A stretch of 64,000 bases of DNA from Elusimicrobia bacterium GWA2_61_42. Lineage in GTDB: Bacteria > Elusimicrobiota > Elusimicrobia > Elusimicrobiales > UBA9959. Made by a program: the position numbers and the translations under genes. Of the stretch, positions 12,957-54,469 are shown piece after piece. The notes below the pieces were generated by a model. The model worked only from the letters and a program-made list of their open reading frames with translations, searched no databases and had not been told where the DNA came from. The stretch is taken from NCBI GenBank assembly GCA_001799615.1, contig MGTU01000007.1, forward strand, positions 1 to 64,000. The letters run 5' to 3'. Positions within the stretch are counted from its first letter, which is position 1. Every line of letters begins with the position of its first letter.

Positions 12957-14165
12957 ATGATCAAAGTTAAACGGGCTTTATCTATAATTTTCGCCGCGGC
13001 GATAGGTTCGGCGCTGCTGGCCGGAACGGCCGGCGCGGGCGAGCTGGACGTCCGGATGACGAAGATAGTTAAGACCTTCACGCGCGCCGCCGCCGACGCG
13101 GGGGTGAGCACGGCCACGCTGGCGGTGATGCCTTTCCAGACCGATAAGAAACTGGCCGAGAAAAGGGTGAACTACGCCTGCGCCGAGATCCTGACCAACC
13201 GCCTGGTCGAGACCAAGACTTTTAAAATGATAGAAAGGGCCAGGCTCGAGGAAGTGATGCAGGAGCAGCGCCTGGGCCTGAGCGGCGCCGTGGAAAGCGC
13301 CACGGCCGCCAAGGTCGGTAAACTTACCGGGGCGCGCCTGGTGATCCTGGGCAGCGTATCTCGCCTGGGCGCGAATTACCACCTGAGCACCGAGATGGTG
13401 GACTCCGAGACCGGGGAGATCATGGCCTCCGACGTCACCGAAGTGGCCGTAGAGGTCTTCGACAAGGACGCCTCCAGGTATATAACCGAGATCCCCGAAT
13501 ACGACGCCATCGGCATCTACCTCGCCGGCGGTATAGGCCTGGCCAGTTCTAAAAAAGTTTCGCCGGCGACAAACCCTAACTTTGGCACGCCGATCACCCT
13601 CACCCCCGCCAACAAGGACATAAACTACTACGGTTACCTGGGCCTGGGGCTGCGCTACCTTTTCTCGCCCAAGTGGATGGTGGACGCCGCTTATTTCCCC
13701 AGCGTCGTTTTCGGCGGGGGGAATGGGACCATCGCCACCGGGCTTGACCCCGTTTTCGACGGCCCCAGCGACGAAGTTAATAACCCCGAGAGTTATGAGA
13801 CCACGATGTTCAGGCTGCTCATTGACCGGACGCTGCCGGTTTCGCCCGCTTTCAAGGTGCACGCCGCCGCAGGCATCACTCAGTTCCCCCAATTCGAAGC
13901 CGACGCCGTTTTTGTGAATAACGGGACTCCTTCTGTGCCGATAACCATCAGGACCAGCAACAGCCGCACCGTCCTGACCACTTTCAGGCTGGGGCTGGAG
14001 TGGAAGCCCAAGCCCCGCTTCGGCTGGTCCGTCTCGGGCCTGTATTATCTCGGCAAAATGACAGCCAGGACCACGGCCATCTTCCCGGACCGGGCCACGG
14101 CCGTCATACAAAAATACGAAACGCGGCCCTTCGCCGCGGAGACGTACCTGTCGTTCTATTTTTAA
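12957..14165 (+). CDS. Secreted protein with CsgG-like domain and outer-membrane barrel
   Basis: 402 residues. A signal peptide spans 1-27 (cleavage after GTAGA). Residues about 55-170 match the CsgG/FlgO-type fold: TLAVMPFQTDKK, CAEILTNRLVETKTFKMIERARLEEVMQEQ (in two blocks) and GARLVILGSVSRLG. From about 185 the sequence alternates in amphipathic beta strands (YYGYLGLGLRYLF, KWMVDAAYFPSVVF) and ends in FYF, the C-terminal aromatic signature of outer-membrane beta-barrels. Known CsgG-family proteins form or attach to outer-membrane pores; the specific role here is unknown. It is a stand-alone gene transcribed away from trmJ. Confidence 0.7.
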   Translation: MIKVKRALSIIFAAAIGSALLAGTAGAGELDVRMTKIVKTFTRAAADAGVSTATLAVMPFQTDKKLAEKRVNYACAEILTNRLVETKTFKMIERARLEEVMQEQRLGLSGAVESATAAKVGKLTGARLVILGSVSRLGANYHLSTEMVDSETGEIMASDVTEVAVEVFDKDASRYITEIPEYDAIGIYLAGGIGLASSKKVSPATNPNFGTPITLTPANKDINYYGYLGLGLRYLFSPKWMVDAAYFPSVVFGGGNGTIATGLDPVFDGPSDEVNNPESYETTMFRLLIDRTLPVSPAFKVHAAAGITQFPQFEADAVFVNNGTPSVPITIRTSNSRTVLTTFRLGLEWKPKPRFGWSVSGLYYLGKMTARTTAIFPDRATAVIQKYETRPFAAETYLSFYF

Positions 14166-19124: not shown

Positions 19125-19160
19125 CCCGGGAACCGCAGCGGCGGATCCCGGGTTTTATTT
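19125..19160 (+). terminator. Terminator after the 56-residue gene
   Basis: A 7-bp stem CCCGGGA (19125-19131) / TCCCGGG (19146-19152) is followed by TTTTATTTT. It overlaps the end of the convergent gene at 19155. Confidence 0.75.
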
Positions 19161-19580
19161 TGCCGCGGTGTCCAGGGTTATGGCCAGCCCCTTGCTTATT
19201 ATCGCCACCCGCCCGCTCAGTTCGCCTCTGAGGTCGCCTTTGCGGACGACCCCCAGCTGCCCGTGGGTGTTCAGCAGGGCCTCCAGGTAAAGCTTGCGGG
19301 TCAGCAGGTCGGGCATGATCAGGTTGGCGGCGGTCATTTCGAATTTTACGGGGAAGACCGGGTTGATGATCTTTTTAACGGCTACGGGCACGCCGCCGTC
19401 GTTGCGCGCCACCACAAAAAGCATGCTGTTGGCGCCCGGCAGCGAGCCCAGCAGGTTCTCTCCCACGCTTACCGTCCCCGCGGCCCTGAAAAAATATTTA
19501 AGAGCGGCGGGATAGCCGAATTTCCATAGGGCAAAAACCGCGGCGGACAGGAGCAGGAGCCAAAGCGATCGTTTCAGCAT
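19155..19580 (-). CDS. Membrane-anchored protein resembling the CcmI C-terminal domain
   Basis: 141 residues from ATG at 19580. One N-terminal membrane helix (about 4-20, SLWLLLLSAAVFALW) precedes a periplasmic domain. The pattern SMLFVVARNDGGVPVAVKKI, FPVKFEMTAANLIMPD and VRKGDLRGELSG resembles the C-terminal domain of the cytochrome c biogenesis protein CcmI/CycH, but no TPR or heme-handling partner is nearby, so the assignment is tentative. The frame is open to 19718, but a TAGAAT box 7 nt before the 19580 ATG supports the shorter form. Confidence 0.5.
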   Translation of the reverse strand: MLKRSLWLLLLSAAVFALWKFGYPAALKYFFRAAGTVSVGENLLGSLPGANSMLFVVARNDGGVPVAVKKIINPVFPVKFEMTAANLIMPDLLTRKLYLEALLNTHGQLGVVRKGDLRGELSGRVAIISKGLAITLDTAAK

Positions 19581-19587
19581 TTTTATA

Positions 19588-19593
19588 ATTCTA
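19588..19593 (-). promoter_or_regulatory. -10 box of the CcmI-like gene, leaderless arrangement
   Basis: On the minus strand TAGAAT is followed by TATAAAA and the ATG (7-nt gap). No Shine-Dalgarno is present. Confidence 0.45.
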
Positions 19594-19733
19594 TAAAATA
19601 CGGGGGCCGATAAAAAGCCGCCTAAAACCTCTCCAAACCGGTAAAAACGGCCGAAAACGCCCGCTCCGGGCCCTAAAAGGGCCCTTTTTTCAGGGCGAAA
19701 CAATCTGTTCATAATCATTTAACATTCCTTTTA

Positions 19734-19762
19734 TTGACTTAGAGGGGGGTGTGTATTAGACT
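19734..19762 (+). promoter_or_regulatory. Promoter of the coiled-coil operon
   Basis: TTGACT (19734-19739), a 17-bp spacer and TAGACT (19757-19762) form a good sigma-70 promoter. It is followed by AAAAGG as Shine-Dalgarno 7 nt before the ATG at 19791. An overlapping TATATA at 19765-19770 is an alternative -10. Confidence 0.65.
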
Positions 19763-19790: not shown

Positions 19791-22700
19791 ATGGCTAAAG
19801 AATACGGCGAACTCGAACAACTTGTAAATGACGTGACCAGCCTGGATACCGCCCGCATGACGCTGCGCTGGGCGCTGGAAAGGCTTAACACCATTGAAAA
19901 AGACAAGGCTGAGCTCAAAAAGAACCTGACCCTTGCCGAGGAAACCTCCAAGCGCCTGCAGGTCAAAGAGTCCTCTCTTACCGACGCCTATGCCTCCCGC
20001 TCCAAGAACCTGGAGGAGAAAGAAGATTTCTACACCAAACTGGAAGCCACCATGTCGCTGCTGGGCGAAGGCAAGCTGGACATCCAGCAGCTCCTGAAAA
20101 AAGAGGCCAAGCTGGACAGCCTGCGCCACAGCCTTGAGGCCGAATATTCGGATAAATTCGAAGAACTGGACCGCAATCAGCGCTCCGTGATAGAGCGCTG
20201 GAACGCCCGCCTGCTGGAAGTGGAAAGCCAGTACGCCGGGCGCCTGGCGGAGGCCCAGCAGAAGTACGACGGATTGCGCTCCGAGCTGGAAAACGGCTAC
20301 CAGGGCCGCATGACCTCGCTGCAGGCCTCCTTCAAGGCCCGCGAGCAGGAGCTGGCCGCCAAGATAGGCGCGCTGGAGGGGAACCTCCGCTCCACCGAAG
20401 GCAAGCTGGACGCCCGCCGCGCCGAACTGGAGAAAGAGCACCTTTTGAAGCAGCGCGAGAACGAAGAGAATTACCGCAAGCTGCGCGGCATGCTGGAAGC
20501 CGGGCTGGACGAAAAACTGCGGTCGATGGATTCTGACCACGCCGCCCAGGTGCGCTCGCTGGAGGCCTCCTGGCAGACCGAGCGGGCCCGCCTGCTGGAA
20601 GAGCAGCACCTGCGCGAAGAACAGTTCAACGCCGCCCAGGCCCGCATCCAGGAAATAGAGAATTCCCTGGCGGCGCAGCAGGAAAAGCACCATACCCATA
20701 TTCTCAAGATCATAAGCGAAAAAGAGACGGCCTTCCGCGCCCAGCTGGCCGCGCTGGAGAAAGAAAAAGAACTGAAAGAGCAGACCGTAAAAGAACTGGT
20801 CACGAGGCTGGAAAAGAAGGCCTCGGACTGGGAGGCGGAACGCGCCAGGCTGGAGGCCGAGTTCGGCCACAGGCTGGCCGGCATGGACGCCGCCATGCGC
20901 GCGCGCGCCGTGGAAATGGAGCGGGAATACTCGGCCAAGAAAGAGGAGCTGGAAAACATCCTGGCCGTCACCCGCGAAGAGTTCGACAAGGAGTTCCAGG
21001 CCCGCCTGCTGATGGAACGCCAGGCTATGGATGAGGAAAAGTCCCGGTTGTCCGAGGAGAAAAGCCTGCGCGAAGAGTCGCTGACCCGCGCCGCCGCTAA
21101 AGTCAGGGAGCTCGAGAGCGCGCTTTCCGCCAACCGCGAAGAGCACCACAAAGAGCTGATGGAGCGCATCCGCACCGGGGAGAACTCTTTCCGTGAAAAG
21201 CTGGAAGGCTTCGAAGCCGAGAAGCGCTCCTATAATGAGACTATTAATAAGCTTTCCGATGAACTGCGCCACAGGAACGGCGCCCTGCTGGAAGAAAAGA
21301 AGAAAATAGCCGAGGAGTTCGGCGCCAAGGCCGCCAATTACGAGCAGAGGCTGGCCGCCATGGAAGCCTCCTTCGAGGAGAGGCGCCGGGGTTACGACGA
21401 AAAGATCGCCGCCCTTTCGGCCAGGCTCGAAGAGGCGGCGAAAGCTTCCGCCTTCGAGAAGGAGAATTTCAAGAACGAGGTCGCGCGCATCTCTTCCGAG
21501 GTGGGCACCCTGGCCGAGGAACGCTCGGCCTCCATCCGCGCCGACTACGAGACCCGCAAGGCCGGGCTGGAGAAGGAATTCTCCGCCCGCTACGGCGACA
21601 GGCTGAAAGCGCTGGAGGCGGAGAAGGCGCGCGTCAACGAGGCGCTGGCCGAGCGCGAGAAGCAGCTGGATATTTCGCACACGCACGCCATGGAGCTGGA
21701 CGCCGCTCTCGCCGAACTGCGCATGAGCGCGACCGACGAGAAGGCCGCGTTTTCGCGGGAATATTCCGCCGAGATGAACCGCGCGCTGAAGGCCGCCGAA
21801 GAGGCCGCCAGGGCCCGCGAGGCCGAACTGATAGCCGACGTGAACGTGCTGCGCGAGGAACTGACCGAGAAGGACCGGGTCATCTCCCTGGAGCGCGAGC
21901 GCCTGGTGGACGAACTTCATAAAGCCTCGAGCGAAGCCCATGACAGGAGCGAGGAGCGGGCGGCCGCGGTGAAAGCCGAGTACGAACGCCGCCTGGCCGA
22001 CCAGGCGTCCCTGGCGGAAAGCGCCACAAAAGAATTGCGCGAGCTGATACAGGCAAAAGAAGTCCAGCTTGAAAAGGTCGTGTGCAGCCAGGAGGAGGCG
22101 GCCAAGGCCCGCGAAGCCGAGCTGTGCGCCGACATCAACGTGCTGCGCGAAGAGCTCACGGAGAAAGACCGGGTGCTTTCGCTGGAACGCGAGAAGCTGG
22201 TGGACGAACTTTCAAAAGCCTCGATCGAGGCCCACGCCAGGACCGAAGAGCGCGCCGCCGCCGTAAAAGCGGAATATGAAAAACGCCTGGCTACCCTGGA
22301 AGCCGCGGCTGAAAGCCGGATAGCGGGGATCAAAGCGCTGCTGGCCGGGAAAACCGCCGAGCTTGAGAAAGCGGAGCAGGACCGCGTCCTGGCGGAAAAA
22401 GGCATAAAGGATGAGTTTGAGCGCCGCGTAGCGGAGCTGGAGGCCGGGATCTCCGCCAAAGCCGCCGCCCTGGAAGCCGATTACGCCGTACGCAGGGAGA
22501 AGCTGGAAGCCGACGCCGCCGCGCGCGCCGCCGCGGTAAACGCCGAGTCCGCGGTCAAGATGGACTTCGAACGCCGCAACTGGCAGGCGGAGCGCGCCCG
22601 CTTCGAAAACACCCTGGAGGAAACTTCCGGGCACTTCCGCGCCGCCCAGAAGGAGATAGAAAACCTGAACCTGGGCCTGCGCAAAGCCGGCGAGACCAAT

Positions 22701-23897
22701 GCCGCCCGCGAGGCCGCGTTCAACCGCGACCTGATGGAAGCCAAAGCTACCTACGACAGGGAGCTGGCTTACCGCGTGAAAGACGCGGTGTCGGTGCAGA
22801 CGGCCCACCTGGTGGAAGCCCTCGAGGCGGCCAAGGCCAGGCAGGAGGAACTTGCCGCCGCCCTGGAGAACAAGGAAAATTCGATACGCGCGCTGCGCGG
22901 CGAGGCCGCCGAGGCCCGCCGGGACTACGAGGAGGGCCTGCGGGCCGCCGACTCCGGCGCCCTTACCGCCCGCCGCGAAGAGCTTGAAAAGCATTACGCC
23001 GGCAAGACCGCCGCGCTCGGAGAAGGCATGGCTTCCCTGCGGCGCGCCCTGGAGGCCGACGCCCAGGCGCTGAAAGCCGAGGTGGAAAAGGCCCGCGCGG
23101 AGACCCTGGCCGCCAATAAGCGCGCCGACGGCCTCTTCGATGAGATGGTGGCGGCCCTTAAGGCGGCGCAGGAGGAAAAGAACGCGCTGCAGCGCGCCCA
23201 GACCGAAGAACTTAACCGCGCCGTCCCGGAAGCCGTGGGCAAAGCGGTGGAGATCCTCTCCCAGAAACTGCGTCGCGCGGAAGACGAACTGGAAAAAACC
23301 CGCGCGGAGAACCGCGACGAAGTGCTGCAGCTCGGCGAATCCTATACGAAAGAGAAAGAGCGCATGCTGGAAGAGATGGCCCGCCGCGAGAATTACGTCG
23401 AGACGGCCGACCTCAAGATCCAGGAACTGGAACGCGATATCCTGAAATACCGCCAGAACGCTTCCGGCGAGCTGCTCAAGCAGATAGCCGAGCAGGATGA
23501 GCGCTTCCGCGGCATAGTCGCCGAGGAAAAGATCCGCCGGGAAGCCCGCGAAAGGGCCTTCGCCGCGGAACTGGAACGCGCCAGGACGGCCTCCGACGCC
23601 CGCGTGAAACAGCTGGAGGACCTGCTGGCCGCCAAGGAAACGCTGATGGCCGAGGGCGACAAGTTCTACCGGCAGAAGCAGCTGGAGCTGGACGGCATGC
23701 ACTCCGCCTTCAACCAGGGCGTCAACAAGGCCAACGAGGAGCTTTTTGCCCAGAAGCAGGCCCTCAGCGAAAAAGAGAAAGCCCTGAACGACTACAGGCT
23801 GAAGCTCGAAAAAGAATCCGCCGCCAGGAACGCCGAGGCGGAGAACATGAAGGCGGAACTGACCCGGGCGATACTGGAATACAAGCGCAGGAAGTAG
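19791..23897 (+). CDS. Giant coiled-coil protein, unknown function
   Basis: 1368 residues, almost wholly predicted coiled coil: dense Glu, Lys, Arg and Ala heptads with very few Pro or Gly. No signal peptide or membrane helix, so it is cytoplasmic. A non-coil head of about 35 residues (MAKEYGELEQLVNDVTSLD) comes first. The rod holds internal repeats; the clearest is a 98-residue duplication around LREELTEKDRV at about 683 and 781. An extended rod of this size would be far longer than ordinary enzymes. Candidate roles are a cytoskeletal filament, spacer or scaffold; SMC is excluded because there are no ATPase ends. First gene of a three-gene operon. Confidence 0.85.
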   Translation: MAKEYGELEQLVNDVTSLDTARMTLRWALERLNTIEKDKAELKKNLTLAEETSKRLQVKESSLTDAYASRSKNLEEKEDFYTKLEATMSLLGEGKLDIQQLLKKEAKLDSLRHSLEAEYSDKFEELDRNQRSVIERWNARLLEVESQYAGRLAEAQQKYDGLRSELENGYQGRMTSLQASFKAREQELAAKIGALEGNLRSTEGKLDARRAELEKEHLLKQRENEENYRKLRGMLEAGLDEKLRSMDSDHAAQVRSLEASWQTERARLLEEQHLREEQFNAAQARIQEIENSLAAQQEKHHTHILKIISEKETAFRAQLAALEKEKELKEQTVKELVTRLEKKASDWEAERARLEAEFGHRLAGMDAAMRARAVEMEREYSAKKEELENILAVTREEFDKEFQARLLMERQAMDEEKSRLSEEKSLREESLTRAAAKVRELESALSANREEHHKELMERIRTGENSFREKLEGFEAEKRSYNETINKLSDELRHRNGALLEEKKKIAEEFGAKAANYEQRLAAMEASFEERRRGYDEKIAALSARLEEAAKASAFEKENFKNEVARISSEVGTLAEERSASIRADYETRKAGLEKEFSARYGDRLKALEAEKARVNEALAEREKQLDISHTHAMELDAALAELRMSATDEKAAFSREYSAEMNRALKAAEEAARAREAELIADVNVLREELTEKDRVISLERERLVDELHKASSEAHDRSEERAAAVKAEYERRLADQASLAESATKELRELIQAKEVQLEKVVCSQEEAAKAREAELCADINVLREELTEKDRVLSLEREKLVDELSKASIEAHARTEERAAAVKAEYEKRLATLEAAAESRIAGIKALLAGKTAELEKAEQDRVLAEKGIKDEFERRVAELEAGISAKAAALEADYAVRREKLEADAAARAAAVNAESAVKMDFERRNWQAERARFENTLEETSGHFRAAQKEIENLNLGLRKAGETNAAREAAFNRDLMEAKATYDRELAYRVKDAVSVQTAHLVEALEAAKARQEELAAALENKENSIRALRGEAAEARRDYEEGLRAADSGALTARREELEKHYAGKTAALGEGMASLRRALEADAQALKAEVEKARAETLAANKRADGLFDEMVAALKAAQEEKNALQRAQTEELNRAVPEAVGKAVEILSQKLRRAEDELEKTRAENRDEVLQLGESYTKEKERMLEEMARRENYVETADLKIQELERDILKYRQNASGELLKQIAEQDERFRGIVAEEKIRREARERAFAAELERARTASDARVKQLEDLLAAKETLMAEGDKFYRQKQLELDGMHSAFNQGVNKANEELFAQKQALSEKEKALNDYRLKLEKESAARNAEAENMKAELTRAILEYKRRK
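21801..22388 (+). repeat. Tandem 294-bp internal duplication in the coiled-coil gene
   Basis: The segment starting at 21801 recurs in frame at 22095, a period of 294 bp or 98 codons. Both copies encode AREAEL..DVN/DIN-VLREELTEKDRV..LERE..LVDEL. The DNA has diverged at many third positions, so the duplication is old and the protein sequence is kept. Confidence 0.85.
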
Positions 23898-23912
23898 CCA
23901 AGGGATATCCTT

Positions 23913-24617
23913 ATGGAAAAAGAACTCGCGATACAATGCGTGCCCGCGGAGATGCTGCAAAGGCTGAAGGCCCTGGCCGACCGCCTTTGGGAGGATAAGA
24001 ACCCGGCTTCCGTGCACCTTAACGCCATCCTCGAGGAATTCGAGCCCGACCTGAAGACGCTGGGCCACATCATAAAGGAGTACGAGGCCGACTACGCCGG
24101 CCGGCTGGCTTTCAACGAGCGGGAGCACGCCCAGAAAGAAAGCCGCCTTAGAGAAGAGATCTCGGATTTCAGCCGCCGGCTCTTCGAACTGGATAAAGAG
24201 CACGCCGCGGGGCTTAAAAAGATAGAGGAACTGAAAGCCGCGCTGAACGCCAGGGAGGCGGTCCTTTCGGAACTCAAGTCCAAGACCCTGGAGGACGGCA
24301 GCGAACTGAACTCCAAATACGTGGACAAGATGCAGGAACTTTACGACCGCGTTAACAGGAAAGAACTGGAGATGCTGGCCCGGTGGGAAGAAAAGAACAG
24401 CGGGCTCGACGCTAAAGTGCAGGTGCTGGAAAGCGATTTCGCGGCCAAGGTAAAGCAGTTCAGCCTGCGCGAAAGGGCGCTGGAAGAGGATTTTAAGGCC
24501 CGCAAAGCGGAACTGATAAAAACTTTCGACCGCATCCGCGCGGACCTGGAGGCCAGGGAAAAAGCGCTGGCCGCGCACGGGAAGAACGGGGCCGGCGGCA
24601 AAGGGGGCGGGTTATGA
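23913..24617 (+). CDS. Coiled-coil protein, second gene of the operon
   Basis: 234 residues. A short globular-looking N terminus (IQCVPAEMLQRLKALADRLW, DKNPASVHLNAILEEFEPD) precedes a coiled coil from about 50 to 220 and a Gly-rich end (GKNGAGGKGGG). The coil composition is like that of the 1368-residue neighbour 15 bp upstream, suggesting the two assemble together. Cytoplasmic. It overlaps the next gene by 4 bp. No known family is recognised. Confidence 0.8.
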   Translation: MEKELAIQCVPAEMLQRLKALADRLWEDKNPASVHLNAILEEFEPDLKTLGHIIKEYEADYAGRLAFNEREHAQKESRLREEISDFSRRLFELDKEHAAGLKKIEELKAALNAREAVLSELKSKTLEDGSELNSKYVDKMQELYDRVNRKELEMLARWEEKNSGLDAKVQVLESDFAAKVKQFSLRERALEEDFKARKAELIKTFDRIRADLEAREKALAAHGKNGAGGKGGGL

Positions 24618-25207
24618 GCGGCACCGGGGACCTTAAGAACCTTTTAGACAGGCTGAAGGAGGAAGTGGGGACGCTGCCCGAAGAACTTCCCAGGCAGGAA
24701 CGCCCCGCGGCCAGGATGCCGGCCACGGCGCAGCCCGCCGAGCGCCCGGTCGAGCGCTTTATGCGCGCGCACAAGCCCGAGGCCCAGCGCGAGCCGCTGC
24801 CGTTGCCGGGCGGGGGCAACATCGTGTGGAGCGAGAACAAGGAAGCCATGCTGTTCGGCATGCTGGCCGCGCTGATAGCGGCGCTGGGCGGCGTGCTGTC
24901 CGGCCTGGATTACCTCGTGCTTATAGGGGCCGTGGTCTTCCTGCTGTTCTCTTTCATGATGCTGCTGTCGCTGTTCGGCTATTATCTGAATTTCCGCAGG
25001 CGCGGACCGGAAAGGTCCGGGCTGGCCGAGCGGGTGGACGCTTTGTCTAAAAAAGTCGAAATGCTCAGCACTATGACCGCCTCCGGAGGCGGTCAGGCCT
25101 ACCAGTCCGCCATGCCGGAAAGGGAACGGGAACTGGAACATAAGGTGGAGGAACTGCGCGTGCTGGTGAAGACCCTGTCCCGCGCGGTGGACCAGCAGAA
25201 CAGGTAA
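24614..25207 (+). CDS. Membrane protein with coiled-coil tail, third gene of the operon
   Basis: 197 residues. A charged, Pro-rich N-terminal segment (1-75) is followed by two transmembrane helices (about 79-97 and 100-125), a basic RRRGPERSG stretch on the inside, and a C-terminal coiled coil (about 163-195). The start overlaps the previous stop by 4 bp (ATGA). The layout suggests a membrane anchor for the two cytoplasmic coiled-coil proteins encoded upstream. No known family is recognised. Confidence 0.78.
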   Translation: MSGTGDLKNLLDRLKEEVGTLPEELPRQERPAARMPATAQPAERPVERFMRAHKPEAQREPLPLPGGGNIVWSENKEAMLFGMLAALIAALGGVLSGLDYLVLIGAVVFLLFSFMMLLSLFGYYLNFRRRGPERSGLAERVDALSKKVEMLSTMTASGGGQAYQSAMPERERELEHKVEELRVLVKTLSRAVDQQNR

Positions 25208-25239: not shown

Positions 25240-25923
25240 ATGAAGATAATGTCCCTTGCGCTGTCAATTCTTACCTTTTTCAGCTCAATGCCGGCTTTCA
25301 GCCTGGAGCTGACGGTCCCGGAAAAAGCGTATTTCATAGAGTCCGGCGATATCATAAACGTCAACGTCTTTCCCGCCGAAGAATTCTCCAAAGAGGTCAC
25401 CGTGCAGCCTGACGGCACCGTGGATATCCCGCTTATCGGCCCGGTAAAAGCCAGGGGGCTCAAGGCGGAAGACCTGGAAAAAACCCTTACGGCCAAATTC
25501 TCCAAGTATGTGGCCAATCCCGCCGTCACGCTGAACGTGCGCAAATTCTCCTCCAACAAGGTGGCCGTCATAGGCCAGATAAATTCACCCGGCTATTACG
25601 AGTACCGCGAAGGGATGCGCCTGCTGGACCTGATCGCCCAGGCCGCGGGCCCGCAGGATTACGCCCGGGGCGCCAAGGTGCGCATTTACCGCCGCGTGCC
25701 GGGCCCCGACGGCAAGATCACCGAGGAAGTGCTGAAGGCCGACATGGCGGCGGTGTTCGACGGGAAAATGGACAAGAACATCCTCCTGCTCAACGGGGAC
25801 ATCGTCTATATCCCGCGCAAGTCCTACTCTACCGCGGCAAAATGGATAACGGATAACTTCGTGCCCTGGGCCACGCTGTTCACTTTCGCGGTGACGGCCA
25901 GCATCGTGGCGAGGAAAAATTAG
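25240..25923 (+). CDS. Polysaccharide export protein, Wza family
   Basis: 227 residues. A signal peptide (about 1-21, ending MPAFS) lacks a lipobox Cys, unlike Wza. The Poly_export domain (YFIESGDIINVNVF, VQPDGTVDIPLIGPVKARG) covers about 30-105, and an SLBB domain (VAVIGQINSPGYYEY, LLDLIAQAAGP) about 107-195. A C-terminal hydrophobic helix (WATLFTFAVTASIVA) may insert in the outer membrane as in Wza. It is 7 bp before the Wzz/kinase gene, its usual partner in capsule or exopolysaccharide export. Confidence 0.9.
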   Translation: MKIMSLALSILTFFSSMPAFSLELTVPEKAYFIESGDIINVNVFPAEEFSKEVTVQPDGTVDIPLIGPVKARGLKAEDLEKTLTAKFSKYVANPAVTLNVRKFSSNKVAVIGQINSPGYYEYREGMRLLDLIAQAAGPQDYARGAKVRIYRRVPGPDGKITEEVLKADMAAVFDGKMDKNILLLNGDIVYIPRKSYSTAAKWITDNFVPWATLFTFAVTASIVARKN

Positions 25924-25929
25924 GCAACC

Positions 25930-27786
25930 ATGAACGCCGAGCTTACCCTTTACGATTACTGGCGCATAGTCAACCGCCGCAAATGGATCGCGCTGATGGT
26001 TTTCGCCGTCACGATCTTTTCCACCCTTTTTTATACCCGCCTGCAGCCGACGGTCTACCGCAGCCAGGCCCTGGTAAAGATCAAGCCGCCGGCCTCCTAT
26101 TCCAGGATCCCCGGCTCGGTGGCGGAAGATTTCGACCCGTGGAGCGCCGTGGCTACGGAGCTCAAGGTCATTACTTCCTCCGAGATCTCGGAGCGCGCCG
26201 CCGCCAAGCTGGGCATGCCGCCCGGCAGGAAGTCGGCGGGCGAGATCGCCGGCTCCTACAGGGTGGAACGCCTGCAGGACTCCAACCTGATAGCCCTTTC
26301 GGCCTTCAGCGCCGACCCCGCGCGCGCGGCGGATATAGCCAGCGCCGTTATCGACGCCTACCGCGACTTCGACCTGGAGCAGAAAAGCAGGCAGGCGCGA
26401 AAGACCCTGGAGGATATCGCCGCCAGGAAGACCGAGGTGGAGGACAGCCTGCGCACCCTGGAGAGGCAGAAACAGAATTTCATTGAGCGCAATCCCAAGA
26501 CCGGCCTGGGCTCGGCCCTGGCGAACCAGCTGGCGGACCTGGAAATCAAGAAACGGGAACTGCTGGAGAAGTATACGCCCAACCACCCCGAACTGCTCAA
26601 CGTGGAGCAGCGCATAAAGGTGGCGGAAGAGAAACTGGAAGAGATCCCCGCGCAGGAAGTCGCGCTGGCGCGCATCAGCCGCGAACTGCGCATGCAGGAA
26701 GAGCTTTATACCACGCTCAACAAGCAGTACGAGGAAGCCAAACTGGGCGTTTCCTCCATGGTGTCTTTTGTCAGCGTGGTGAACCGGCCCATGCCGGAGA
26801 ACTCGCCGATCTCGCCCAACAGGCAGCTGAACCTGATGGTGGGCGCGGTGCTGGGGCTGTTCCTGGCCGTGGTGATAGTGTTCCTGCTGGAGAACCTGGA
26901 CGTTTCCATTTCCACCATCGAGGATATCGAGAATTTCATAAAGCTGCCGGTGCTGGGCATCATTCCCAACATCCTCAGCGAGAAGCGCCTGGACAACTGG
27001 CTGACCAATATTTTCAAGAAAGAGCGCTACACGGTGGACGCCTTCAGGAGCGTGCTGATAGTCAACCGCAAATACGCCTCCGGCGTGATAGAGTCCTACC
27101 ATACGCTGCGCACCAATATCATGTCGCACCTTAACACCAAGGAGAGCGTGTCGCTGGTGATCAGCTCGGCCGGGGCGGCCGAGGGGAAAACCCTGACCGC
27201 CGTGAACTTCGCCCTGGCCAGCGCGAATTCGGGGCTCAGGACGCTGCTGGTGGACGCCGACATGCGGCGTCCCGCCATAAACGAGATCTTCGGCACCCGC
27301 AAGGAGCCCGGCCTCAGCGACGTGCTGGCCGGCAAGGCGGACTGGCGGGAGGCCGCGCTGGAGAGCGCCGATTTTATCATGGGCGGCCTGGACTTCGACC
27401 AGCTGATGCGGTTCCCCGGCATTGAGAACCTGAAGATCCTGAACTCCGGCACGCAGCCCGCCAACGTGATAGACATCCTGGACTCCGCCAACTGGCGGGA
27501 CCTGATGGAGGACCTCAAGAGCGAGTTCGACATGATAATTTTCGACGCGCCGCCGGTGCTGCTGTTCGTGGACGCCACCATGATAGCCAAGCACGCCTCC
27601 GACGGCGTGGTGCTGGTGTACAAGGCCGGCAAGATAGCCCGCGGCGCGCTGAAGCGCGCCAAGGAACAGGTAGGCGGGTCCAACGCCCGCATGCTGGGCG
27701 TGGTCCTGAACGGCGTGCGCGCCTCGGAGATGGGCCCGCAGTACGGCTATTACTACTACGACTACAAGAATTACGCGCGCCGCTGA
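25930..27786 (+). CDS. Chain-length determinant/BY-family tyrosine kinase (Wzc-like)
   Basis: 618 residues. The Wzz domain begins with the first membrane helix (about 18-38), has a coiled-coil periplasmic segment and ends at a second helix (about 296-318). The kinase domain has Walker A at about 412-420 (SSAGAAEGKT), Walker A' LLVDADMRRP and Walker B IIFDAPPVLL near 536-545. The C terminus is a Tyr cluster (GYYYYDYKNY) for autophosphorylation. The usual Pro-Gly before EGK is Ala-Ala here. It works with the Wza-type exporter to control chain length and export. Confidence 0.92.
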   Translation: MNAELTLYDYWRIVNRRKWIALMVFAVTIFSTLFYTRLQPTVYRSQALVKIKPPASYSRIPGSVAEDFDPWSAVATELKVITSSEISERAAAKLGMPPGRKSAGEIAGSYRVERLQDSNLIALSAFSADPARAADIASAVIDAYRDFDLEQKSRQARKTLEDIAARKTEVEDSLRTLERQKQNFIERNPKTGLGSALANQLADLEIKKRELLEKYTPNHPELLNVEQRIKVAEEKLEEIPAQEVALARISRELRMQEELYTTLNKQYEEAKLGVSSMVSFVSVVNRPMPENSPISPNRQLNLMVGAVLGLFLAVVIVFLLENLDVSISTIEDIENFIKLPVLGIIPNILSEKRLDNWLTNIFKKERYTVDAFRSVLIVNRKYASGVIESYHTLRTNIMSHLNTKESVSLVISSAGAAEGKTLTAVNFALASANSGLRTLLVDADMRRPAINEIFGTRKEPGLSDVLAGKADWREAALESADFIMGGLDFDQLMRFPGIENLKILNSGTQPANVIDILDSANWRDLMEDLKSEFDMIIFDAPPVLLFVDATMIAKHASDGVVLVYKAGKIARGALKRAKEQVGGSNARMLGVVLNGVRASEMGPQYGYYYYDYKNYARR

Positions 27787-27846: not shown

Positions 27847-29247
27847 ATGCCGATACTGATAGTCCTGATGGCCCTGGCCTCCGCCGCCGTTCTCGGTTTT
27901 TTGGCGACTTCCTTTCCCCCGCAGATACTTTTCACTCTGGCCGCCGCCCTTATCGTTTCCCTTTTCGCTTTCTCTTCTCCCAAACTCAGCCTGGGGCTGC
28001 TGCTGTTCTCCATGCTTTTTTCCCCCGAAATAGGTTTCGGCGCGCTTACGAGCAGCAGGACGGTGGTGATAAGGTATGACGATATTCTGCTGGTCATAAT
28101 CTTCCTGGCCTGGCTGGCTAAAAGCGCGGTGGTAAAGGGGAAAGCCTTCGTGACCGACACCCCGGTCCAGGTGCCGATCATAGTTTACACCTCCATCTGC
28201 GTGCTCTCTACGACGTTCGGCATCTTACGGGGGGACATCCGCTCCGAAGTGGCCTTCTTCTACGTGCTGAAATACGTGGAGTATTTCCTGCTTTATTTCC
28301 TGACGGTGAACGTGCTGGACTCCGAAGAGGATATCCGCAAGTATTTCCGCTACGCTTTCTTTATTTCTTTGGCGGTCACCGTTTATGCCTATTTCTACTA
28401 TTTTACGGCCGGCGCCGGTGCGAGGGCCAGCGCGCCTTTCGAGGCCCCGTTCGGCAAGCCTGGAGAATCCGAACCGGCTTCCCTTGGCGGGTATTACCTG
28501 ATCGTAATGGGGGTGCTGCTCGGCCTTATCACCCAGGGTGGAGGGTCCGCGCTAGGCTGGCCGCTGGCGGCCGTGGCGTTCATCTTCCCGGCTTTCCTGC
28601 TGACGTTCTCCAGGGCTTCTTACATAGGCTTCGTGGTAATGATCGGCGCGGTCATCCTGAAGACCGGGAAACGGCGCCTGCTGCTGCTCTCCATCATGTG
28701 CCTTGGGCTCGCGGCGCTGTTCGGCGCGAAAGAGTTCTCGGGCAAGGTGCGGGAACGGGTGGAGATGACCTACAGCGGACAATTCGCCACGCACGAGGTA
28801 AAATTTTTAGGAGTGACGATAAAACTGGAGGAATCGGCCTATATCCGGTACCTTTCCATGCGCAACGCTTTCGTGGATTGGCTGCCCAGACACCCCGTGC
28901 TGGGCCGCGGCGTGACCGGGGTAGGCCTGGTGGATACGCAGTTCGCGCTGATCCTGGGCGAACTGGGGCTTCTCGGTTTCCTGTCTTTTTTCTGGATGCT
29001 CTACAGCGTCTACGCGGTGGCTCAGTCGGTCTACAAGGCCTATGACGAGCCCTGGGTGAAAGCGGCGGCGCTCGGTCTTATGGTTTCGCTGGCGGGGCTG
29101 CTGGCCCAGGCCGTGGGCGTCAATACTTTTATCATCGTCCGCATCATGGAGCCTTTCTGGTTCCTGACGGCCGTTATCGTGCGCCTGCACCTTCTTAAAA
29201 AAACGAGCCGCGCCGCAAGTCCCTCTCCGGAGCCGGCAAGGCCATGA
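27847..29247 (+). CDS. O-antigen ligase/polymerase-family membrane protein (Wzy/WaaL)
   Basis: 466 residues with about 11-12 hydrophobic helices and a large periplasmic loop (around 300-350) containing RHPVLGRGVTGVGLVDTQFALILGELGLLG in the typical place, the PF04932-like signature. It would polymerise repeat units or ligate a polymer in the periplasm. Sequence cannot separate polymerase from ligase. It sits directly before the GT2-flippase fusion. Confidence 0.82.
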   Translation: MPILIVLMALASAAVLGFLATSFPPQILFTLAAALIVSLFAFSSPKLSLGLLLFSMLFSPEIGFGALTSSRTVVIRYDDILLVIIFLAWLAKSAVVKGKAFVTDTPVQVPIIVYTSICVLSTTFGILRGDIRSEVAFFYVLKYVEYFLLYFLTVNVLDSEEDIRKYFRYAFFISLAVTVYAYFYYFTAGAGARASAPFEAPFGKPGESEPASLGGYYLIVMGVLLGLITQGGGSALGWPLAAVAFIFPAFLLTFSRASYIGFVVMIGAVILKTGKRRLLLLSIMCLGLAALFGAKEFSGKVRERVEMTYSGQFATHEVKFLGVTIKLEESAYIRYLSMRNAFVDWLPRHPVLGRGVTGVGLVDTQFALILGELGLLGFLSFFWMLYSVYAVAQSVYKAYDEPWVKAAALGLMVSLAGLLAQAVGVNTFIIVRIMEPFWFLTAVIVRLHLLKKTSRAASPSPEPARP

Positions 29248-44313: not shown

Positions 44314-44984
44314 AAGCAGCCATACACCAACTCCAATACTGGCCGGGCCTCCGGTTCTTCGCCAAGATGCGGGCCTCGGATATTTTTATCTATCTCGACG
44401 ACGTCCAGTTCGAGAAGCGGGAGTTTCAGAACCGCAACCGCATCCGCACCGCCCGCGGCTGGCAGTATCTGACGGCCCCCGTGGTTTCCAAGGGCCGCTT
44501 CTCGCAGAAGATCAATGAAGTGGAACTGGATAATTCCGCCGGCTGGCGGGAGGACCACTTGCGCGCCATAAAGCTGAACTACGCGCGCGCGCCGTTCTTC
44601 AAAGAGCACCTGCCGGCCCTCGAGGCGCTGTACGCCAGGGATTACCGGCTGCTGTCGGACCTGACCCTGTCCACCATGGATCTTCTGAAGGACGGGTTCG
44701 GCATAAAGACCCCGGTTAAATTTTCCTCCGAATTGAAAGTGGAAGAGGCTTCCAGCGCGCGGCTGGCCAGGCTTTGCGCGGCCGCCGGGGCCGACGAATA
44801 CCTGTCCGGCGCCGGGGCCAAGGCTTACCTGGACCCCGGGGTTTTCAGCTTCGCGGGCATAAAACTTTCCTGGCAGGACTTCACGCCCCGCCAGTACCCC
44901 CAGGCCTTTCCCGGCTTCGAGCCGGATATGTCGGCCCTGGACCTCCTGCTTAATTGCGGCCCCGCCGCAGGTGAATATTTATGA
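44310..44984 (+). CDS. WbqC-family protein
   Basis: 224 residues. IHQLQYWPGLRFFAKMRASD at about 5-24, DDVQFEKREFQNRNRIR near 30-46 and YLTAPVVSKG are hallmarks of the WbqC-like family (PF08889). Members occur in O-antigen loci, often beside aminotransferases and methyltransferases; their reaction is poorly defined. It is coupled by 4-bp overlaps to the methyltransferases on both sides. Confidence 0.85.
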   Translation: MKAAIHQLQYWPGLRFFAKMRASDIFIYLDDVQFEKREFQNRNRIRTARGWQYLTAPVVSKGRFSQKINEVELDNSAGWREDHLRAIKLNYARAPFFKEHLPALEALYARDYRLLSDLTLSTMDLLKDGFGIKTPVKFSSELKVEEASSARLARLCAAAGADEYLSGAGAKAYLDPGVFSFAGIKLSWQDFTPRQYPQAFPGFEPDMSALDLLLNCGPAAGEYL

Positions 44985-52931: not shown

Positions 52932-54377
52932 CTAGCCTTTTATCACTATCAGCGGCCTGAACCTGGCCACGCGGCGGGCTATGCCGGCCTCCGCTATCAC
53001 CCGCACCACGGCGTTCACGTCCTTGTACGCTTCGGGCATTTCTTCCGCTAAAGTTTCCCGGCCCGATGACGCCACCCACACGCCGGCCGCGCGCAGTTCG
53101 TCCGCTATGTTGCGGCCGCGGGCGCGCCTGACGGCCTCGTGGCGGGACATCAGGCGCCCGGCGCCGTGGCAGGCCGAGCCGAAAGTTTCCCGCATGGCCC
53201 TGGCTGTTCCCGCCAGCAGGTAGGAACACCGGCCCATGTCGCCCGGGATGATGACGGGCTGGCCGGTGGCGGCGTAGGCGCGCGGCAATTCGGGGTGGCC
53301 CGGGCCGAAAGCGCGCGTGGCTCCCTTGCGGTGCACCACCACCGTCATTTTCCTGCCGCCTATCTCGTGCTCTTCCAGCTTGGCGATATTATGCGCCACG
53401 TCGTAAACCAGGTCCATGGCCAGGGCCCGCTCGCCCATCCCCAGCACTTTTTCGAAGGTATTTCTAACCAGCCCGGTAAGCGCCTGCCGGTTGGCCCAGG
53501 CGTAGTTGGCGGCCGCCTGCATGGCGCCGAAATAGTCCTGCCCCTCCGTGCTGCGGAACGGCGCCGCGGCCAGCTGCGGATCGGCGAGCGGGATATTGTA
53601 GCGGCGGGCCGCGCTCCGCATGACTTCTATGAAATCAGTGCAGACCTGGTGGCCGAACCCGCGCGAGCCCGTATGCAGCATGACGGCCACCTGGCCTTTG
53701 AACAGCCCGAAAGCCCGCGCGGCCGCCTCGTCGTAAATGTCGGTCACTTCCTGCACTTCCAGAAAATGGTTGCCGCTGCCCAGCGTGCCCAGCTGGCCGC
53801 GCCCGCGCTCCAGCGCCCGGGCACTTACCGCGTGGGGGTTGGCGCCGCTCATGGCGCCGCTGGATTCGGCGTGCTCGAGATCCTCGGGCCGCCCCAGGCC
53901 GTTCTCCACGGCCCAGGCCGCGCCCTTTACCAGGGGCGATTCCTGCGCCCGCTTGTCCAGCCTTATCCCGCCGCCGGCGCCCACGCCCGCCGGGATATCG
54001 GCGTGCAGCGCGGCGGCCAGCTGCTCCAGTTTCCCCGCCAGGCCCGAGAGCTCAAGCCCCGTGGCCAGCAGGCGCACGCCGCAGTTGATATCGTAGCCCA
54101 CGCCGCCGGGGGAGATCACGCCCCGTTCGGCATCGAAGGCCGCCACGCCGCCGATGGGGAAGCCGTAGCCTGTGTGGATGTCCGGCATGGCCAGGACGCT
54201 GCCGGCCAGGCCCGGCAGGGTGGCGGCGTTGGCGGCCTGGTCGACCGCGGCCGCTTCCAGGAACTGTTCCAGGACGGCGTCGGCATAAATTATGGCGGAG
54301 GCGTTCATCCCCTGCTTGTAGGAGGGGAGGATCTCGAGCCGGTTAAGGTCCAGGCGCAGGATATCGGGGTTTGTCAT
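52932..54377 (-). CDS. rtcB: RNA-splicing ligase RtcB
   Basis: 481 residues. RtcB joins 2',3'-cyclic phosphate or 3'-phosphate ends to 5'-OH RNA. MPDIHTGYGFPIGGVAAFD, GGVGYDINCGVRLL with the metal Cys, GTLGSGNHFLEVQ, HTGSRGFGHQV, IPGDMGRCSYLL and the guanylylated-His segment SACHGAGRLMSR are all intact. The start at 54377 (MTNPDILRLDLNRLE) is chosen by homology; the same frame is open upstream without coding character. No archease or RtcA is nearby. Confidence 0.93.
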   Translation of the reverse strand: MTNPDILRLDLNRLEILPSYKQGMNASAIIYADAVLEQFLEAAAVDQAANAATLPGLAGSVLAMPDIHTGYGFPIGGVAAFDAERGVISPGGVGYDINCGVRLLATGLELSGLAGKLEQLAAALHADIPAGVGAGGGIRLDKRAQESPLVKGAAWAVENGLGRPEDLEHAESSGAMSGANPHAVSARALERGRGQLGTLGSGNHFLEVQEVTDIYDEAAARAFGLFKGQVAVMLHTGSRGFGHQVCTDFIEVMRSAARRYNIPLADPQLAAAPFRSTEGQDYFGAMQAAANYAWANRQALTGLVRNTFEKVLGMGERALAMDLVYDVAHNIAKLEEHEIGGRKMTVVVHRKGATRAFGPGHPELPRAYAATGQPVIIPGDMGRCSYLLAGTARAMRETFGSACHGAGRLMSRHEAVRRARGRNIADELRAAGVWVASSGRETLAEEMPEAYKDVNAVVRVIAEAGIARRVARFRPLIVIKG

Positions 54378-54469
54378 GCGTTCAGCCTCGCGCGTACAGG
54401 GCCGCGATGCGGTCTGCGCCGCTGCGCTGCAGGAAAAGAAGAGAGTGTGCCGGCTATCGCGGCGCCGCT

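Follow-up and report, generated by a model that had tools for sequence, protein, structure and literature searches.

A coiled-coil rod, a short coil and a membrane protein encoded before polysaccharide export genes in Elusimicrobia: a candidate scaffold and its motif family

The locus and its genes

The window analysed here is a stretch of 64,000 nucleotides from Elusimicrobia bacterium GWA2_61_42 (contig MGTU01000007.1, positions 1 to 64,000 of the forward strand), whose genome assembly amounts to 2.95 Mb in 34 contigs. It contains a trio of consecutive genes that may provide a scaffold for a polysaccharide exporter (Table 1): (i) c1, which encodes a giant helical rod and is present as a single full-length copy in this genome; (ii) c2, which encodes a short coil; and (iii) tm, which encodes a membrane protein. 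A gap of 15 bp separates c1 from c2, and c2 overlaps tm by 4 bp; of the 18 relative loci, 16 show the same overlap. An earlier sequence-only reading had described these open reading frames (ORFs) at the same place, with the same lengths for c1 and c2 and the same spacing, and had placed them directly before a polysaccharide export locus, where the wza-like and wzc-like genes indeed lie. Since the three proteins are conserved at the protein level in 17 other genomes, they correspond to real genes and not to chance ORFs. The promoter that had been proposed to drive the trio corresponds to two sigma-70-like consensus matches, that is, to patterns in the DNA; such matches number five in the region, against 0.9 expected.

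Table 1. Coordinates of the trio, its motifs and adjacent features in the window
Feature	Position	Strand	Remarks
Second promoter-like site	19687-19715	+	9/12 sigma-70-like consensus match, pattern only
Promoter-like site TTGACT-17-TAGACT	19734-19762	+	9/12 sigma-70-like consensus match, pattern only
c1	19791-23897	+	1368-aa helical rod ORF
c1 N-terminal helix LDTARMTLRWALERL	19842-19886	+	family-defining motif
c1 C-terminal tail ELTRAILEYKRRK	23856-23894	+	tracks presence of c2
c2	23913-24617	+	234-aa short coil
tm	24614-25207	+	197-aa membrane protein
wza-like polysaccharide export protein	25240-25923	+	Poly_export 75.2 bits, SLBB 45.8 bits; syntenic in 18/18 loci
wzc-like chain-length protein, tyrosine autokinase domain	25930-27786	+	TIGR01007 165.3 bits (cut-off 108.05); syntenic in 18/18 loci
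466-aa multi-pass membrane protein	27847-29247	+	syntenic in 18/18 loci

Conservation of the trio and linkage with the export genes

The trio was surveyed in 41 genomes: its own, 24 of the genus and 16 of another family in the order. In this set, c2 was matched in 18 genomes and tm in 19, one of the tm matches being spurious (42 residues in a different gene context, at locus L065 of genome G003); neither gene was found in the 16 genomes of the other family. With the spurious match left out, 18 loci from 17 genomes remain, one of which carries two copies. At all 18 of them c1, c2, tm, wza, wzc and the gene for the 466-aa membrane protein follow each other in the same order and on one strand; five of the rods are incomplete, four at contig ends (L051, L060, L062, L064) and one split by N (L047). 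Hence, the trio is kept as a unit that is syntenic with wza and wzc. Its dispersal in relatives had been named beforehand as an outcome speaking against the sequence-only reading, as had matches to SMC or tape-measure families; neither check refuted it.

Within the 25 genomes tested, c2 and the cognate wzc (73-92% identity where present) are both present in 18 and both absent in 7. The informative genomes among these 7 are G011, G021 and G023, the last without a window-type rod. Three genomes, G011 (L093), G021 (L091) and G148 (L265), lack the export block; in them the gene that lies beyond the export locus in the window, at 44981, comes either directly after the rod or one gene further on. 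Comparison with these three loci makes segment 23913-44980 of the window, from c2 to the end of the sugar cluster, look like one unit that some relatives lack. The G021 rod is down to 277 aa but retains its whole head, the tyrosine is gone from the rod tail of G011, and G148 still has c2; judging from these sequences, the rod body and tail seem to be tied to c2 and the exporter, and the head seems to have a use of its own.

A named collection of loci was obtained by scanning 84,980 species for two fixed peptides (TARMTLRW and EEKEDFY), a scan that would miss a variant motif outside the phylum: 63 loci were confirmed out of 291 stretches. All of them come from metagenome-assembled genomes, which have gaps, named Elusimicrobia, Elusimicrobiota, Elusimicrobiales, Elusimicrobium minutum or plainly 'bacterium'. 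No plasmid was matched by tblastn with 150 residues, and no c1 relative was confirmed on viral contigs, where one fixed peptide was used. Among the 37 loci with at least 3 kb downstream, wza and wzc lie within 6 kb in 26, in several families, and c2 and tm are present in 27 and 22, respectively (L107, whose rod is split by N, was counted by hand as positive, both export genes being visible on the locus).

The conserved head of c1

The helix DTARMTLRWALER, within the first 113 residues of c1, heads a paralogous family of giant rods. The median identity to the window is 88.5% for residues 1-113 (12 orthologues) and 35.5% for the body (14 orthologues), the latter value coming from end-to-end alignment and being lowered by length differences. 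The corresponding medians, from 18 sequences each, are 84.1% for Wzc, 70.3% for Wza, 57.3% for c2 and 53.6% for tm, so the head of the rod is more conserved than Wzc. Residues 20-23 (TARM) and 25-29 (LRWAL) are invariant across 43 class members, which is in part an effect of selection, because the loci came from a scan using TARMTLRW. A whole-genome search with a hidden Markov model (HMM), free of peptide selection, yielded 22 distinct cores of other types that keep T, A, L, R, W and A and vary at the positions R/K, M/L and T/A. These cores were excised with a loose pattern, which gave no core for 2 of 110 motif ORFs (L209 and L211); they read ETARATLRWALER and DTARMTVRWALER. If the head is read as a helix, A21, L25, A28, L32 and I35 make up its core stripe. 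T20, R22, M23, R26 and W27 fall outside this stripe and may form a binding face.

The rod tail, c2 and tm

All 28 rods that have c2 downstream carry the tail pattern EL..[AT][IV]..[YH], and none of the 12 without c2 does; no other occurrence is seen in 57,275 residues. The pattern was built post hoc on these same sequences, and related rods are not independent. Left out of this comparison were the split rod of L107, that of L070, which is interrupted close to the end of its contig, and rods that run beyond theirs. At loci not used to build the pattern (L206, L208 and L265, of which two belong to a different family in the class), all three rods beside c2 carry the tail.

The c2 protein has a conserved N-terminal domain (about residues 1-60, LW..NPA.V.L.A..EEF). 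In L063 and L064 the protein is far longer and shows weak similarity; in L052 an extra 821-aa gene with a c2-like start lies between tm and wza. As for tm, its layout comprises (i) an N-terminal motif, for which one pattern covers the window and 17 of 18 orthologues; (ii) a proline-rich linker; (iii) the membrane segment; and (iv) a C-terminal coil, absent from L060 and L061. The membrane anchor with two helices proposed earlier appears as one hydrophobic region (residues ~76-127), which reads as two adjacent helices. The anchors that follow rods without c2 (L092, L094, L110, L111) start with a motif similar to that of tm. At L103, with no wza or wzc within 6 kb, a single 177-aa ORF after the rod combines the c2 N-terminal domain (94.3 bits) with the tm linker and hairpin (49.4 bits), and it is the sole ORF in the set matched by both models; this natural fusion suggests that c2 and tm act together.

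Shape and composition of the rod

The c1 protein contains one proline and 39.8% charged residues. It has no hydrophobic stretch (best 19-residue mean, 0.93), and neither an export signal nor a hydrophobic N-terminus was found in it; no export signal was found in c2 either. I, L, M, V and F repeat every 3.624 residues (power 8.5, shuffles about 1.5), with the hydrophobic phase staying within a range of ~110 degrees from residue 117 onward; the first 84 residues peak at 3.44. When Ala is counted as hydrophobic, 15 rods of the genus, including that of the window, peak at 3.61-3.65, above the best of 20 shuffles in 12 of them (not in G016, G024 and G007). Seven distant rods, measured without shuffles, peak at 3.616-3.642, and the paralogous rods range from 3.60 to 3.68. 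The c1 period lies near 29/8, and near the turn of a helix without strain; a coiled coil with a period of 3.5 residues is therefore less expected than a rod with almost no twist, in which heptads and hendecads are mixed. At 0.15 nm per residue, c1 would reach a length of about 200 nm when fully stretched out. A myosin-like charge repeat of 28 residues was not found in c1. Among 41 rods complete in their loci (a count that includes L107, split by N, and the interrupted L070), length ranges from 226 to 2957 aa.

A paralogous family of motif rods

The motif HMM matches at least one rod in 121 of 340 Elusimicrobiota genomes, and 26 of 32 genus genomes have exactly three motif rods. The three of the window genome are matched with E values of 1.8e-26 (c1), 1.9e-9 and 9.6e-7. 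Apart from c1, they are (i) a 995-aa rod (type B, L190) followed by a gene for a coil plus histidine kinase and by a response regulator, with type IV pilin genes near; and (ii) a 1025-aa rod (type C, L191) followed by a 968-aa rod.

In the type-B arrangement of L190 (2767-10029, minus strand), the rod and the coil gene overlap by 16 bp and a response regulator comes next. The same arrangement is seen in L193, L215, L266, L267, L271, L272, L273, L275 and L277, with pilin genes near in several of them; the histidine kinase end of the coil gene was established where it was scanned (L190). The type-B tail QL[KR][DE]K...WK is found in 11 of 11 loci with the coil-kinase gene directly downstream, among 18 type-B loci, and in none of the 5 without it (L192, L268, L270, L279, L281). 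This count includes L276, where just 175 aa of the coil-kinase gene are present; in L274 no gene is called after the rod, and L278 runs beyond the end of its stretch. We do not count this tail as evidence, because the 16-bp overlap means that WKxK is partly set by the kinase start.

The third rod type is matched in 30 of 32 genus genomes, in G017 by a mere 52-residue fragment. A second giant rod follows directly in 5 of the 5 type-C loci read, where it starts with the related motif [LFI]D[SP]AKM[IV][LF]RL; the type-C tails, by contrast, are not conserved. In L191 (3992-9974, minus strand) the adjacent giant rods have ~700-1070 aa each and the second bears a degenerate motif, and L262, L263, L264 and L282 are alike; the double rods of L191 and L262-L264 lie near genes that, by eye, resemble those of polyamine metabolism.

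Elsewhere, a motif rod adjoins mreB (L194), type-B rods lie near ftsA/ftsZ-like genes (L192, L268) and in L213 a motif rod and a kinase ATPase domain form a single fusion protein. Other families in the class have motif rods beside wza and/or wzc (L113, L114, L116-L119, L200, L202, L206, L207, which duplicates L118, and L209). In L113 the order is wza, wzc, rod; next comes a single-pass membrane protein (12966-13682), which matches CBM_48 at the cut-off (22.4 bits), and then a 1785-aa gene. In another family, an AAA ATPase gene stands beside the motif rods (L200, 7042-7851; L202, 5964-6773), with wza and wzc on the opposite strand.

Neighbouring genes

The wzc homologue has Pfam matches to GNVR, AAA_31 and Wzz. 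The 466-aa membrane protein is probably Wzy/ligase-like, a reading by eye; no NCBIfam match was found for it, the NCBIfam scan being the one applied to this protein. The genes beyond it read, in our own assessment, as glycosyltransferase-like. Upstream of the trio, Pfam identifies a pth-like gene, and there are others that we take to be glmU-, prs- and rplY-like. The gene at 19155-19718, on the minus strand and divergent from c1, encodes a small membrane protein that matches Ig_CycH (29.2 bits, cut-off 27); many relatives have it upstream of their rod, among them L091-L094, where the export genes are missing. A transfer RNA with a four-base anticodon, called by ARAGORN at 54311-54403, has no Rfam support and is probably due to chance.

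Comparison with known families and systems

At an E value of 0.01, c1 belongs to no Pfam or NCBIfam family, and whatever c2 and tm match in these databases scores far under the curated cut-offs. PHROGs gave no match to any of the three at an E value of 0.001, and profile searches of the PDB gave only coil-like matches. These scans agree with the earlier description of a membrane-linked coiled-coil set without a known family. No described family for these proteins was found in the open-access literature, and the literature search found no published work on scaffold proteins of the phylum Elusimicrobiota. The suggestion of an undescribed system stands as regards the conserved unit; it does not describe a closed system, as the rod belongs to a class-wide family defined by its N-terminal motif and persists without adjacent export genes (L091, L092, L093, L094, L103, L265).

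The export genes themselves are homologues of wza and wzc with standard domains. A rod, c2 and tm like these are not known to us from any Wza-Wzc system described so far, nor did such a system turn up in the literature search. A reading of tm as a Wzz/PCP protein was rejected, since its continuous hydrophobic region leaves no room for the large periplasmic domain that separates the two membrane helices of such proteins. Membership of c1 in the SMC/Rad50 group, which has ATPase heads at both ends, was rejected as well (no family in the Pfam and NCBIfam scans at an E value of 0.01), and so was a phage tape measure, given the lack of PHROG matches and the chromosomal neighbours.

The closest likeness is one of logic. 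According to PMC9858780, DivIVA-like proteins (DivIVA, GpsB, FilP, Scy) form a scaffold family defined by a short conserved N-terminal motif before a coiled coil, with members of very different lengths, and FilP and Scy contain hendecads. Nevertheless, the motif given there is RGYDxxEVD, and that of the rods studied here is different: GYDxxEVD occurs in 0 of 63 rods, and GYD is likewise missing from residues 1-80 of all of them (in the window rod it occurs once, internally, at 534). In DivIVA-like proteins a heptad coil follows the motif; in c1, too, a coil comes after a motif, but with its peak at 3.624 instead of 3.5. Since the motif is absent, no DivIVA Pfam match appears at an E value of 0.01 and the period is not that of heptads, membership was rejected.

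A further likeness in logic is offered by FrzS of Myxococcus xanthus, described in PMC3158785 as a cytoplasmic coiled-coil protein that controls exopolysaccharide production. FrzS is found at the cell poles, and by the tests made it is no homologue of c1. Membership was rejected because c1 has no Response_reg match at an E value of 0.01 that would indicate an N-terminal (pseudo-)receiver of the FrzS/AglZ type, a search that a weaker, degenerate receiver could escape. Finally, the Mad coiled-coil network positions a cell structure, the magnetosomes, and magnetotactic Elusimicrobiota are reported to be without MamK and the chain-forming Mad proteins (PMC12748827); a magnetosome link was set aside on that report, by description and not by sequence.

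Proposed role and alternatives

To the following reading we give about even chances: within an operon for exopolysaccharide export, the trio would supply a cytoplasmic scaffold that is held at the inner membrane and places or regulates the Wza-Wzc exporter. In its favour are the gene order shared by all 18 loci, the joint presence or absence of c2 and the cognate wzc, the export genes within 6 kb at 26 of 37 loci, the tail that tracks c2, the fusion in L103, the lack of an export signal in c1 and c2, and the shortened rod of G021. From the genes and their conservation we infer the physical contacts, the cellular location and the effect on export as follows. The N-terminal helix of c1 would dock to a common cellular partner (a hub), also used by the paralogues; the C-terminal tail would plug into c2; c2 would join the rod to tm through its N-terminal domain; and tm would form an inner-membrane hairpin with both ends in the cytoplasm. 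The order of the chain would then be common hub, c1 head, rod, c1 tail, c2, tm and Wzc. Ending beside Wzc, the chain might place, cluster or gate the Wza-Wzc machine, or else tie its activity to the hub.

Several observations weigh against this proposal. Four of the seven genomes lacking both c2 and wzc prove little, because their rods are interrupted at or near contig ends (cut by the contig end in G001, G002 and G020, interrupted 1.4 kb before it in G003). In 11 of the 37 loci counted, wza and wzc are absent near the rod, and c2 is present without them in L120, L121, L124 and L125. Moreover, the paralogues adjoin unrelated genes, and G011 and G146-G148 keep rods of 1079-1965 aa without a cognate wzc; therefore, the rod must have a further role.

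Rods kept without export genes would suit an intermediate-filament-like cytoskeleton, in which c1 and its paralogues polymerise for shape or division and the export genes are mere neighbours. The rod architecture resembles that of the FilP/Scy sort, and the paralogues beside mreB and near ftsA/ftsZ-like genes point the same way; but c2 tracks the cognate wzc in 25 of 25 genomes, rod length varies more than tenfold and the myosin-sort charge repeat is lacking, so that we hold such a cytoskeleton to be rather improbable. Also unlikely is a FrzS-like signalling scaffold, with rods linking two-component signalling and surface motility to polysaccharide output. It draws on the kinase, response regulator and pilin genes next to type-B rods, on the kinase fusion of L213 and on a response regulator after c1 in L093; against it, neither a receiver nor any other signalling domain is found in c1, c2 or tm by Pfam and NCBIfam, and the trio operon has no signalling gene. 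An SMC-like protein, a phage tape measure, a surface protein or a coil without a specific role are largely refuted and very improbable: a weak similarity of c2 to SMC_prok_A (18.7 bits against a cut-off of 729.4) is common for coils, while c1 falls into no family of the databases searched, has no confirmed relative on viral contigs, lacks a hydrophobic N-terminus and bears a head more conserved than Wzc.

Beyond the export scaffold itself, a broader reading is tentative, and we consider it possible though doubtful: the class Elusimicrobia may possess modular rods, in each of which a shared helix at the N-terminus would dock to one hub, a spacer would be free to vary in length and a plug at the C-terminus would be specific for one partner, the partners being c2 with the polysaccharide exporter, the coiled-coil kinase, and others. 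If this were true, several surface machines would be placed via one address tag, unrelated in sequence to DivIVA-like proteins, and the family would be an independent case of the logic by which an N-terminal motif and a coil define a scaffold family. In any case, a short and nearly invariant motif on several giant rods per genome, together with a tail that tracks its partner, gives a handle on cell-surface organisation in these bacteria, and the link between scaffold and sugar export becomes testable with small peptides.
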